From Gossypium raimondii (lineage: Eukaryota; Streptophyta; Magnoliopsida; Malvales; Malvaceae), in NCBI RefSeq assembly GCF_025698545.1, contig NC_068567.1, positions 930,001 to 994,000 of the forward strand: 64,000 nucleotides of DNA, given 5' to 3'. Each line of letters starts with the position of its first letter. Position 1 is the stretch's first letter. The notes under the pieces are model-generated. The model saw only the letters and a list, made by a program, of their open reading frames with translations. It was not told where the DNA came from and searched no databases. This document shows positions 42,903 to 60,204 of the stretch, piece after piece. Both the position numbers and the translations under genes were made by a program.

Positions 42903-43309
42903 TAGAAGTGCTCATGGGCCGGGCTGGGCCTATAAAAAATTTTGGCCCGAGTCCTAGATCCAGGCCCGGCCCGAAATATGGGCCTGAAATTTTGTCCATG
43001 CCCGGCCCGGGAAAAAAATCATAAGCCCGGGCCCAGCCCGGCCCATTTTTAATAAAATACCAAAAAATTATTTTAAAAATTAAAAAAATTAAAAAAAGTA
43101 TTTTAAAAATATTTTAAAATTAAAAAATTTAAAATTTAAAAATATTTATTATATCGGGCCGGGCCAGGTTGGGCCCGGGCCAAAAAAGTTGTGCCCGAGG
43201 CCCGGCCCATTTTCTAAATGGGCCTCATTTTTTGCCCAAGCCCATATTTCAAGCCTATATTTTTACCCAAACTCGGCCCGACGGCCCGCCCGGCCCATGA
43301 GCACCTCTA
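42903..43309. mobile_element. Short hAT-type element, CGTAGAGA target duplication
   Basis: 407 bp. The ends are TAGAAGTGCTCATGGGCCGG (one base off the TAGAGGTGCTC form) and 'cccatgagcacctcta'. Perfect 8-bp duplications CGTAGAGA stand at 42895-42902 and 43310-43317. Units A (37511-37518) and C (53425-53432) have a single CGTAGAGA and no element. It has no transposase, and the middle is an A/T-rich run. Confidence 0.93.
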
Positions 43310-53252: not shown

Positions 53253-55424
53253 TGTTGTTAAGCTTCGAATGTTTGTATTTTAATTAAGATTTGAATGAAG
53301 GTTTGATGATGGTTATATATATATATATTAAGGGAAAGAAAAAAAATGGAAAAACGAGAGGAGAAGACGACGGCGGGAATAGTGAAAGGATTCAAAGATT
53401 TTGACCTTTTAAATTAAACTGGTGGCGTAGAGAGAAAGCATGGCATAACCACGTGATTACACATCTATAAATTTCTTCTTTTTTGAAAAATCTCATCCTC
53501 GCCCATGAAACAAAAATTTAATCAGCTTACTCGAATTCATGTCTTGTTAGAAGAGTGCCTTAAAATAAAAAAATTTATTATTTAAATTATTTAAATATTT
53601 TTAAAATTTTAAATTAATATATATATATAATTTTATCTTTTTCTTTTAATATTATATATATTTAATTTAATCTTTTAAAATTATAAAGATATAAAGTATA
53701 AAAGATTAAAATTTCATCCGTCCTCTAAAAATTTGTTCTAACTTTGTCCCTAGTCTTCTTACATTGATATAACTATACTCATACTAATTGAGTTAAAACT
53801 CTACCAATCTCATATCCATAATCTTATTCTTGTTTTAACTGTTTTATTGGATGATCGAGTATTTATTATAAAATTACTCAAAGTATAATCATTTATTTGG
53901 TCATTCAATTTTAACAATAAAGGCATTTTAGCTCTTCAATTAAATTTTTTCTTTTTCTTTTAACTCTTAAACTTATATTATTTGTTAAATCATCCCAAAT
54001 AGATAAAAAAATTAGCGATATTAACTTTGTTGATATGACATACATGTAGGAATCTACGTATATGCCACGTTAATAATTAATTATTTTTAAAAATTATAAA
54101 ATATTAAAAATTGCAATTTTATACTTTCTATATTTTTAAATTTTTGAATTTTTATTTTAAAATTTAATTAATTGTTAATGTGGCATCCATGTGTATGATA
54201 GTTAAGAAAGTTGACAAATAGACGAAAATTTAAATGGAAGAATAAAATAACTTTTTTGTGAAGTTGGAAGGCTAAATTAGTCCTTATATATACAATTTAA
54301 ACCTAAAACACCATATATGATATACATTTAACTTTAATTTTATCGTGGTAACCAAAACATCAATAGATTATTTATGTAAAATTTTAATAAATATTGTAAC
54401 AGTTCGATTTTGGGCCTAATCGGAACAGTGATTTCAGAACCACAAATTCGATGTAAGAAAATTTATTTATTTTATTATATTTTTATGATCTACGATTTCA
54501 CGAAATGATTTTATCAAAATTTCGTTCGAAAATTTTAACATTTGGGCACTCAATTTAGTCAAAAATACTAAATTGTAAAAAGTGCAAAAGTTAAGTTCTA
54601 AATGTTAGAGGTGTCCAATTGTTATGAAATTTTAAATTGGAGGTCATTATATGTAAATTAGACCATTGGTTAAGTTGGTGGACAAAAATGGACATGGTTA
54701 AGCATGTTTCCAAAATTTTTCATTAAGGATATTTTAGTCATTTAGTTATTAAATTGAAATAAAATCAAAATTAAAAGCCAATTTTTGTCCATCTTCAACC
54801 TCTTGGCTGAAACTTGTATGGAAAACTATGGCTAGGGTTTTTCAAGCTTCCAAGCTCGATTGTAAGTTCATTCTAGCCCCGTTTTTAATTATTTTTATGT
54901 TTTTGAAATCCTCGTAACAAGATATAGCTATTTCTACCATTATTTTGAGCTAGGGTTTGTGTTTAATAATTTACCCATGGATGACTTGCATGTGTTTTGA
55001 TGTTTCATGGTAGAATATGAAAGTTTGAAGTGTAATAAACAACTTCTACTAAGTGATTTTTAGTGAAATTTCATAAAATGACCTATTTGTAAAAGTTATA
55101 AAATGTGTAAAAAATGTGATTTAGTGAAAATTGTGGGCTGCTATAAGAGGGAATATGAATCGGCTAGACTTGGGTAATGAGAAAAATGAGTACTTTTCAT
55201 TTTAAGAGCCTAGGGGTAAAAGTGTAAATATGACAAAGTTTAGGCGCAAAAATATAATTTTTGCCAAATATGATTTTTGGCTGAATTGATTAGTATAATG
55301 ATTAAATAAGTTAAATGTGATGTTTTAGATCAAGAAAAACAAGGTTCGGATCTAGATCGGGGAAAAATAAGTAATTGACGAATAAGTCCTTTTTACCGAT
55401 TTTGCTTTCAAGGTAAGTTTGTAT

Positions 55425-57710
55425 TAGAGGTGCTCATGGGCCGGGCCAGGCCCAGAAAAAATTCCGGCCCATGTCCTAGGCCTGGCCCTGGCCCGGCCCA
55501 AAATATGGGCTTGAGATTTTGTCCAAGCCCAGCCCAGGGAAAAAATATAGGGCCCAAGCCCGACCCGGCCCATTTTTTACTTAAAATTAATTGTTATTAA
55601 AATTATATTAAATATCAAATTATATTTTCTTTGTATATAATGAACAAAAAATAAAATAAGATAACTTATTTGAAGAACAAACTCAAACATTGACTAATGT
55701 GGGATAAAACTGCTTAAGTAAATAACCTCAAACTGTAGCCTGTACAAAAAGGAAAATCAATTTGATATTTATTTTTTCCGTAATTAAGGAGAAAATAGTA
55801 TAGCATATTATCTATAATTGCAATTCTATGGATAAAATTATTACAACAATTGAAGCCAATATAGTGGAATATGGGCTCTAAAATGGTATGTCAGTATTGA
55901 TAAAAGAAAACTGCCCAAGCTACATGAAGATTCAACCCAGGTAACCCAAATATGAAAATATGGTAGCAAAGTAAAGGAACACTAGAAACTATTACTGGAA
56001 AGTGGAAACTATGACTGTGATAATTTAACTGGTCTCATTGTGATAATTTATAACAGTATATTACAAATTTTATAACAATATATTAAACCAGTATATTACA
56101 TTAATAATTAAGGTGTAGTATTTATAACAGTATATTTATAACAGTATACTAAAACAGTATATTAAAACAGTATATTTATAACAGTATAATAAACTAGTTA
56201 TTTAACTACAATAGATCAAACTTATATTTACAGTAAAGATCAGAGAAAGAAAGAAAAAAACTAACTTTTGATTTTAAGTAAAACTTATATTTCCAACATC
56301 GTTAAATTAGCAGAGGCACCAACAATGCTTGAAAGCACAAGAGGGTCAATTATACTAATCCCTTGCCTTCTCATCTTAACAAACAAGCCAAATGCATCAA
56401 CCCCATTTCCACTCTGTATTAACCCAGATATCAAAGCAGTCTAAGCAAACAAATTCAGGTGAACCCTTAAAAACAACTCCAAAGCCTCTTCTTTTCTTCC
56501 TTTTCTAGCATAGCCATATATGATAGCAGTCCAAGAAGCCGTATTTTTCAACTTAATAGAATCGAAAACTAAACGACTATCATCAGGTAATCCACATTTT
56601 GCATACATATCAACCAAAGATGACTTAACAACATCATCATCAAAATAGGGTGATACTAAAAAGTTGCCATGAACTTGCTTACCTTGTTTAATAGCACCCA
56701 AGCTACCACAAGCCTTGACAAGGCTACCACCTGCTGTTTGTGAACCAGCATGCATGAAAGAAGCAGAAAAAATATACTTGTATGTGATCTCAGAATTCAG
56801 CCCTGCAAATTACATGTTCTATAAAACATAAATCAATTCTCATCCAATAATAATTGAATAATACAATTTTGCTCTTAATTCTCATCCAAAATGAAAATTG
56901 TTGTTAATGACAGTGACATATTAGTTTAGTTTAATTTAAGCAGTCAATTTGGAGGGTTATTTTTTCAGTTTTTTTAGATTCCATAAACCCTAAATCCAAT
57001 TCTATTGATTTTCTTCCTTTTTCGGTTTTAATAAAAGAACAAATTTGCAACAAAAGAACAATCATCATTCAAGAAAAGAAAATCACATTAATCCGCAAAA
57101 GAACTAAAAAAAAAATAGAACAATATGTAAAGTGTAAACACAATCAAAATCCCCCCAAGATTCAGTGTCTCAAAATCAAAATCAGAAAATCGTTAACAGC
57201 AAAAATCAAAATCACAATCAAAAGCAAAAAGCAAAAAGGGGAGAAGACATTGAAAAATTAGAAAACCGTTAACAAGAAATAGGGTTAACAGCAAACTTAC
57301 CTTTGAAATTCTACCACGTTGGAGGCTAGAGCGGAGGTGGAGTTGTGGAGGACCGGACACCAGAGGTGGAATGGTGGATCGGTGGAGGTGAGTTTTCGAT
57401 TTGGGGGAAAAAAAGGGAGGAGGGAAGGGGTTAGGGATTTATAGATACACGGGGTCGGGAAATGAGAAATGGGGAGGGGAATTGGGAAATGTAACTGTAA
57501 TAATAAAATTTAAAAATAAAAAATATATATTAATTAGATTAGGGCCGGCCCGGGCCAAAAAATTTTTGTCCGAGGCCTGGCCCGTTTTCTAAACGGGCCT
57601 CATTTTTTTGCCCGAGCCCATATTTCGGGCCTATATTTTTACCGGAACCCTCCCAAATTTTGGGCGGGCCGTTGGGCCGAGCCGGGCCGCCCAACCCATG
57701 AGCACCTCTA
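55425..57710. mobile_element. Pack-type hAT element with captured PPR gene piece
   Basis: 2286 bp. The ends are TAGAGGTGCTCATGGGCCGG and 'cccatgagcacctcta', with perfect 8-bp duplications GTTTGTAT (55417-55424 and 57711-57718). The outer 160-180 bp on each side match the short relatives at 42903-43309 and 59030-59547. The inside (about 55590-57530) is unrelated to those and holds gene sequence (next entry). No transposase. Confidence 0.9.
56284..57400 (-). pseudogene. Captured PPR gene fragment (leader, intron, first coding exon)
   Basis: On the minus strand a leader (about 57400-57301) ends CAAAG|GTAAGT. A 498-bp intron ends TTTGCAG at 56803, and an exon starts at 56802 with ATG at 56755-56753. 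The frame 56755-56441 (104 codons) shows PLS-class pentatricopeptide repeats: SLVKACGSLGAIKQGKQVHG, SLVDMYAKCG, and SWTAIIYGYARKGRKEEALE. A TAG at 56443-56441 stands where Trp is expected (the next words are TALISGLIQSGNG); the frame beyond is open to about 56284 (SSIVGASANLTMLE). Whole PPR proteins have many more repeats and bind RNA in organelles; this piece cannot. Confidence 0.85.
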
Positions 57711-59029
57711 GTTTGTATGTAAATAATGCATCGTTTTTACTTATGTTATCATATTTTATTATGTTTTATGAAATGTGGCTGAATATTGAATGAAATTGAC
57801 AAGTATCGAAAAGTAAGAAATTTCTCGATTAAACATTAGGAATAGAATAGGATACAAGTGACATGTCACTAGTGACTCAAGTGTGGTAATATGTGAAGGC
57901 CACTTTGTAAAGAAAGATAGTTTTGGTCACAATTGTGGTATGTGAAGGCCACTTTGTGAAGAAAGATAGCTTTGGTCACAAGTGCAGTACTATGTGAAGG
58001 CCACTTTGTGAAGAAGGTAGCTTTGGCTACAAGGGTGGTACTATGTGCAGGCCATCGAGTATTCGTTATTATTCCGATATATTCAACGGGAAATGACTAA
58101 GTGTAAACGAATATGACTATGTGATGAATAAGTGCAGGTATGTGTGTATAAACGTATGAGCAATGTACTCGAGATATAATCAAATTTTGGTAAGATTGAT
58201 ACGGAGTAAGTATTACAATGAAAGTTACTATAAATAAAACATGAAAGAGTGAAATTTAAAAATAAAATAGTTTTGGACAGCAGCAGTTGTGCGAATTTGA
58301 AAAATCACCAAAAATGGTGGAAATTGAATTAGAAGTTGAATAAGATATGGAATTGAAGCTTATTGAGTCTATTTTCACATAAAAGAAATGACGTCAGTAA
58401 AAGAATTTCATATTATGATATATTTGAATTTTTGTGAGATAGGGTTAGAATGATTTGGAATCCCCTGTTCTGACTTTGGAAAATTATTAAAAATTGTACA
58501 AAAATAGTTACGGGTTAGAATTTATATGTTTAAAATCCTGAATGAGTCTATTTTCAAGAGAAATAAACAGGAACATTATCGAAATTCTATACGAGAAGAT
58601 AATTAATTTTTAGTGCAGAAAGGTCGAAACTATTAGACAGTAGAACAGGGGAACTTTAAAGAATAAACTGTACTTATTGGCTAAACAAAAAATTCTGAAA
58701 ATTTTATGGTAAGAAGATATGTGAGTCTAGTTTTAGGAAAAATTTGCAGAACTTAATTTGGAGTTCTGTAACTCAAGATATAAATAATTTAGTGACTATG
58801 ACTCGAGTAGATAGCTAGATATGAACTTGAGTAAATATTTGAACTATGTGCAATTATGATTGTATTATTTTGAGAACGAATTGTGAAGATTGATAAAAGC
58901 ATGTTAATAAATTGTTTATTATTTACATACCAACTTACTAAGCTATATGCTTACTCCCTTTTCTTTCCCTTGTCTTATAGTGCCACCAAGCTAGTTCAGG
59001 TACGGAGATCGTCGGAGATCCATCCACAC

Positions 59030-59547
59030 TAGAGGTGCTCATGGGCTAGGTTGGGCCGGGCCGGGTTCGGGCTGGTCCTAGAAAAAATTTTGACCCGAGT
59101 CCTAGGCCCGAGCTCGGCCTGAAATATGGGCCTGAAATTTTGCCCAGGCCCGGCCCGAGAAAAAAAGCATAAGCCTGAGCCCGGCCCGGCCCGACCCATT
59201 TTTTTATAAATACCAAAAAATTATTTTAAAAATAAAAAAATAAAAAAAGTATTTTAAAAATATTTTAAGATTTAAAAAATTTTAAAAAAGTATTTTAAAA
59301 ATATTTTCAATTTTAAAAAAAATTTAAAAAGTATTTTAAAATTAAAAAATAAAAAAATTATTTATTATATTCAGGCCAGGTCGGGCCGGGTCGGGGCCAA
59401 AAAAGTTGTGCCCAAGGCCCGGCCCGTTTTCTAATCGGACCTCATTTTTTTACCCAAGCCCATATTTCGGGCCTATATTTTTACCCAAACCCTCCCATAT
59501 TTTGGGCGGGCCGTCGGGCCGGGCCGCCCGGCCTATGAGCACCTCTA
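59030..59547. mobile_element. Short hAT-type element in the solo LTR
   Basis: 518 bp. The ends are TAGAGGTGCTCATGGGCTAG and 'cctatgagcacctcta'. The 8-bp flanks ATCCACAC (59022-59029) and ATTCACAC (59548-59555) differ by one base. No coding capacity; the middle repeats 'agtattttaaaaatatttt'. Confidence 0.9.
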
Positions 59548-60204
59548 ATTCACACTATCAACACTCTTTTAGTATTTTTGAAAGCAACATTATGAATTAT
59601 GGCATGTATAGAAGACTTGGTTATTTTGTTATGTGTCATAATTGATTTGGCCCAAAATGATGGCCTATGTTATTTGATAGTTCAATTTGTATAAGCCCAT
59701 TGATGTTGGCTATTATTGGTTATGTTTAAGTCCGGTAATACCTCGTACCCTGTCCTGGCGTCTGACACGGGTAAGGGGTGTTACAAATATATTTGTTATA
59801 TAATTTTTTTATTCATATCACGCGTAGTTTAATAAATTTAATTTTTTTAATAGAGTAGATTTATAAATATAAATATATGATCATAACTACACATAAAGAG
59901 ACTTAAACAATTAAACCTGAATGCTCAAATCCAAACCTTTATGTTTTATTAAGTTTATTATATTCTAATTGATCGAAAATATATTATTTAAACTTTGTAC
60001 ATTATGATTCTCATAACTTCAATTTTATTATCTCAATTAAAACTTCATCCACTAATTATATTATATTTAATTCTTTTATATAATATTTATACTATATTAT
60101 TATAATATATATTTTATATTTTTATATTTTGATATTATGTTATTTTTATGTATATCGAGTTTAATATTATCATATTTTAAGAAAATAATCGCAGTATGTG
60201 ATAG

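Follow-up and report, generated by a model that had tools for sequence, protein, structure and literature searches.

A probable gene-carrying (Pack-type) hAT transposon with a captured PPR gene piece in Gossypium raimondii

Within a 64,000-nucleotide stretch of Gossypium raimondii DNA (hereafter, the window), positions 55425-57710 combine the ends of a hAT transposon with an interior resembling the leader, intron and coding exon of a PPR gene. This arrangement raises the question of which parts were taken from a host gene, which belong to the transposon, and when and how they came together. Our analysis indicates that the 2286-bp element is very probably (roughly 93%) a non-autonomous, gene-carrying (Pack-type) hAT transposon, delimited by its ends, its target duplication and three further genomic copies with the same PPR junctions.

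Ends, target site and host LTR

As originally predicted, both ends of the element and its 8-bp target duplications are clear. A perfect duplication, GTTTGTAT/GTTTGTAT, occupies 55417-55424 and 57711-57718, and the element begins and ends in 22-nt terminal inverted repeats that are 91% complementary (55425-55446, plus strand; 57689-57710, minus strand) and common to two relatives in the window and to others in the genome. These are hAT-family features, as opposed to the 9-bp duplication and Mutator-type ends of a Pack-MULE. Comparing the first 16 bases of the element with the whole window at up to 3 mismatches revealed 6 matches, against 0.22 expected by chance, and the motif bounds three elements: 55425-57710, 42903-43309 and 59030-59547. 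The latter two are the short relatives whose ends had been said to match, and the match is borne out. The left end with its GC-rich subterminal region (55425-55587, plus strand) is common to 42903-43309 over about 163 bp, and the right end (57499-57710, minus strand) to both relatives over about 210 bp; element 42903-43309 is flanked on both sides by CGTAGAGA. An AT-rich tandem array of AACAGTATA-type units at 56048-56205 has similar counterparts in hAT relatives.

Consistent with a Pack-TYPE transposon, a host gene piece lies inside the inverted repeats and duplications, its donor is located elsewhere and the element moves with its cargo. Pfam searches found no transposase domain in the 10 of 35 listed non-PPR frames that were scanned, which gave a single match far below its cut-off, nor in the PPR frames; over these frames the element is without transposase coding sequence of its own. 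It aligns over 34% of its length to a transposase-bearing relative (L043), with none of that alignment inside the transposase frames. We also considered 55575-56283 as a nested element bounded by 22-nt inverted repeats, and rejected this candidate because, of 100 simulated sequences, 16 contained an inverted repeat just as good. Searches of viral contigs yielded 12 stretches that fit a pattern from the PPR piece, none of them confirmed, and no match to the end motif.

The element interrupts an LTR at 54395-59785, which has TG...CA ends, is flanked by AATAT at 54390-54394 and 59786-59790, and measures 2571 bp once two hAT inserts are removed, a length from which we read it as a solo LTR. An empty LTR site is visible in two sibling units of the surrounding repeat, and the nesting order originally proposed (repeat unit C, then LTR, then hAT insertion) is correct. 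When we sought an empty site for the hAT insertion itself in the window's other LTR copies, only the right part of the LTR had a relative. A diverged relative (78%) of that right part lies near the window start, at 690-1236. The second hAT insert in the same solo LTR, 59030-59547, is short, belongs to the same family and has a duplication matching at 7 of 8 bases.

Sources of the cargo

The captured piece of a DYW-type PPR gene spans 56288-56726 (439 bp), where the minus strand encodes PPR repeats. Its donor, at C3:2338862-2339303 (98.2% identity), is on the same contig 1.35 Mb from the element and lies in a 611-residue open frame (L012:2534-4366) that encodes PPR, E and DYW domains. Finding this donor supports the prediction that a hAT element had captured a PPR piece, but the match is limited to 56288-56726 rather than extending over 56284-57400, and the donor frame continues uninterrupted upstream of the captured part. 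A search of the genome to which the window belongs (751 Mb) with 56284-56830 produced 19 matches, comprising the window itself, near-full matches on C5, C12 and C6, the donor and 14 short matches on the leader side. Beyond 56288-56726, nothing else of the element matched the 7 kb around the donor at E 1e-6. The single nonsense change that had been reported is present, as a TAG codon at 56441-56443 (minus strand) where the donor and the three other copies have TGG; both this stop and a 3-bp deletion occur in the window copy alone. Bordering the PPR piece on its 5' side, 13 nt (56727-56739, minus strand) could be assigned neither to the donor nor to hAT relatives and may be filler.

A second captured fragment of 324 bp, at 55676-55999, matches C4:50374906-50375229 at 97% with 10 mismatches and no gaps. 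Among the 56 matches listed from a search that scored the best 40 of 162 candidates, this interval is covered only by the four Pack copies and the C4 locus, barring left-end matches at its very margin. The 901 bp fetched around the C4 locus contain no hAT end motif.

Upstream of the PPR piece, all on the minus strand, the element has a TATA-like CTATAAAT (from 57444) and a C-rich leader exon at 57301-57444, both predicted; a predicted 498-bp, T-rich GT...AG intron at 56803-57300; and a second leader exon at 56740-56802, whose ATG at 56753-56755 would be the first in the RNA after the predicted splicing and is in frame with the PPR piece. The intron and second leader exon are hAT-family sequence. 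Querying the genome with 56727-57498 returned at least 51 matches, the four Pack copies and 47 others, a lower bound because only the best 40 of 164 candidates were scored. Two of the leader-bearing loci connect this sequence to a transposase: L043, a 5025-bp element with both hAT ends and the duplication GTGGTGTT, and L016, with its right end within the fetched stretch and a left-end match just beyond. In both, zf-BED, hAT-like RNase-H and Dimer_Tnp_hAT domains lie downstream of leader-type sequence on the same strand, in interrupted frames, which indicates that the family encodes a hAT transposase. The resemblance of L043 to the element is uneven, at 95.9% across 56783-56880 and 72% across 57336-57684. 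In six loci (L013, L014, L015, L016, L017 and L019), the ATG-bearing stretch (56755) is followed by mutually shared sequence that is not PPR.

Since the donor matches 56288-56726 only and the leader and intron recur across the hAT family, we rejected the reading of leader and intron as PPR sequence. The original description of a PPR leader, intron and coding exon thus holds for the coding piece but not for the other two. Most simply, 56740-57498, with its promoter-like region, leader exon and intron, would represent the 5' region of the hAT family, with a putative link between leader and transposase gene that is one of position only.

We drew on 25 longer loci (11 + 14) that were picked by their likeness to cargo or leader rather than randomly. 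All but the PPR donor (L012) were scanned for both end motifs, with left-end pieces from L050 and L051 added, and 11 of these 24 loci, the C12 Pack copy among them, contain an entire element in which both ends are present and 6 or more of the 8 bases are duplicated. Another leader-bearing locus has a frame that looks by eye like a hAT transposase (L038:8634-9068).

Sister copies and order of events

The genome search found other copies in which the same ends carry the PPR piece, on C5, C6 and C12, each with both PPR junctions as in the window copy. The C12 copy (L010:2100-4262) is flanked by the duplication CTTCCAAT, the C5 copy by TGTTGGAT and the C6 copy by GTTTCATG/GTTTCATA, which match at 7 of 8 bases. 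Two copies are split, on C5 at 54178563-54195394 (~17 kb) and on C6 at 12000136-12011602 (~11.5 kb), probably by later nested insertions; judging from positions, matching ends and duplications, each would be continuous across its split. Identical PPR junctions combined with four different target duplications imply one capture followed by at least four insertions. The capture had been thought younger than both the LTR and the repeat unit, but it precedes the insertion studied here, and only the insertion is younger than the LTR.

Gaps aside, the PPR piece differs from the donor by 4 substitutions in 436 positions in the window copy, 9/439 in C5, 10/438 in C12 and 9/433 in C6. All four copies share a substitution at column 267 and each other change is private to one, a star pattern such as a single capture with early spread of the copies would leave. 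Synonymous and nonsynonymous changes from the donor number 0/4, 3/6, 4/6 and 4/5, so that nonsynonymous changes are not depleted and no purifying selection on the PPR piece is evident. The PPR frame is broken in three of the four copies, by the nonsense codon in the window copy on C3 and by frame-shifting gaps in C6 and C12, and the C5 copy is open from the corresponding ATG through the entire piece. As far as these sequences allow, the order of events can be read as capture, then spread, then decay.

Intact splice sites had also been predicted, and the acceptor TTTGCAGGGCTG at 56803 does look intact in the window copy, but it is altered in the three sisters (L009, L010 and L011). Among the relatives, TTTGCAGGGCTG is found in L018 and L042, and TTTGTAGGGCTG in L043, so that the window copy either kept or regained its acceptor. 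None of the four copies combines an open frame with the TTTGCAGGGCTG acceptor. Differences between copies reach 4.2-5.7% across 56727-57710, GC-rich end included, versus 2.5-3.9% in the PPR piece, and on this leader and right-end side 8 columns split the copies into pairs, in three ways that conflict, and 73 columns are private to one copy. The leader-side excess could mean that the GC-rich end decays faster or that related elements have exchanged sequence. Taken together, the leader-side divergence, the conflicting columns and the acceptor found only in the window copy leave room for some such exchange.

Mechanism, function and related elements

We propose that a break inside a hAT element was under repair when fragments were copied into it by template switching, as in abortive gap repair, and that the composite would then have been moved in trans by transposase from full-length relatives, although the transposase frames of L043 and L016 are interrupted. 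The intact donor, two unlinked fragments, missing transposase coding region and 13-nt junction fit template switching. Maize Ac/Ds offers a parallel, in which Ds elements with an internal deletion and their own ends contain foreign filler DNA from abortive gap repair; the present element is alike in all three respects, a likeness drawn from description only.

Two other routes to the same structure were weighed. Capture of a single contiguous gene piece with leader, intron and coding exon would account for the good splice consensus in the window copy and for the in-frame position of the ATG at 56753-56755 relative to the PPR part, and some weaker matches to solved proteins, such as PPR10, begin at residue 17 of the 171-residue piece. 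Against it, besides the extent of the donor match, the donor's open upstream frame and the many leader-bearing loci that have no PPR piece, homology to the PLS-type structures 9kfx, 5iww, 5iwb and 5izw begins only at residues 25-27, upstream of which the PLS-type consensus has other sequence, and we regard contiguous capture as scarcely credible. Mobilization as one unit of two hAT elements flanking the PPR donor deserves somewhat more weight and is unlikely rather than implausible: fusion of neighbouring insertions is the capture model favoured in the available part of PMC8903248, where it is described for several superfamilies including hAT, and the donor does lie on the same contig, 1.35 Mb away. 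However, the 7 kb fetched around the donor gave no hAT-end match and the 901 bp at C4 no end motif, two unlinked fragments would demand two rounds of the process plus internal deletions, and the hAT leader abuts the PPR piece but for 13 nt.

As to function, the cargo is most likely passenger DNA that is now decaying neutrally, and the promoter-like region of the element may drive its transcription as a predicted PPR fusion. That this fusion is a new functional gene or a source of regulatory RNA under selection appears very improbable: the C5 frame is open from its ATG through the PPR piece and the element carries promoter-like sequence, but the frames of the three other copies are broken, nonsynonymous changes are not depleted and the acceptor is altered in three copies, C5 among them. 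Only a little less doubtful is the broader notion that the family works as a portable expression cassette, in which PPR or NLR-like pieces (the latter in L045 and its C9 copy) would be transcribed under the promoter that the element retains from its family, yielding fusion proteins or small RNAs acting on their donors.

Gene capture had been called less documented for hATs than for Mutator-type elements, a fair description, although cases are in print (PMC2528002, PMC8277862 and PMC8903248, as far as the available parts of these papers go). By those accounts, gene-carrying hATs are known in grape, maize, rice and frog, and the element described here is another example. Closest are the Pack-hATs of maize and rice, which are non-autonomous like ours, with hAT ends, 8-bp duplications and pieces of host coding sequence, sometimes from more than one locus; they come from other plants and have another family of ends, and, unlike them as described in the part of PMC8903248 available, our element has hAT promoter-like, leader and intron sequence beside its captured exon. 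The grapevine Hatvine-6 elements carry pieces of host exons and introns but share transposase coding sequence, and a PPR piece had already been reported in grape in a CACTA element, not a hAT (PMC2528002, available part). The frog Pack-hAT-N8_XT is likewise multicopy and belongs to an animal family; gap-filling or template-switching models appear in the same paper, where its origin was argued through outgroup genomes (PMC8277862, available part). No title among those listed in the literature searches dealt with the present element.

What this case offers is a hAT capture with a donor gene, a second source locus, junctions placed nearly to the base, four copies and a transposase-bearing relative. 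It also sets right an error that is easily made, namely crediting the captured gene with a leader and an intron that belong to the transposon. Through this error, automated annotation of Pack elements could arrive at too many spliced gene pieces.

Other members of the family also contain cargo, of which only the L045 piece looked genic among the few frames tested. That element (L045:4577-7397; duplication AATTACGG/AATTGCGG) holds a 524-bp NLR-like stretch. The longest frame of this stretch resembles the disease-resistance winged-helix domain WH_DRP (E 4.6e-5), with a score of 23.8 that is below the cut-off of 27 bits. A cluster of places on C5 (29.3-30.0 Mb) matches the stretch at 71-81%, and C9 has a second copy (97%), situated within L040 with a right end on one side and left-end-like sequence on the other. 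Six more places in the genome carry positions 161 or 166 to 524 of the stretch, at 93-96%. A related hAT at L039:4509-6623 contains 871 bp of cargo with one other genome match (C11:56227583-56228463, 95%). The unique stretch of L037 has a counterpart on C10 (94-96%) and partial matches elsewhere, six of them adjoining leader matches. A stretch in L013 has an 85% match on C9.
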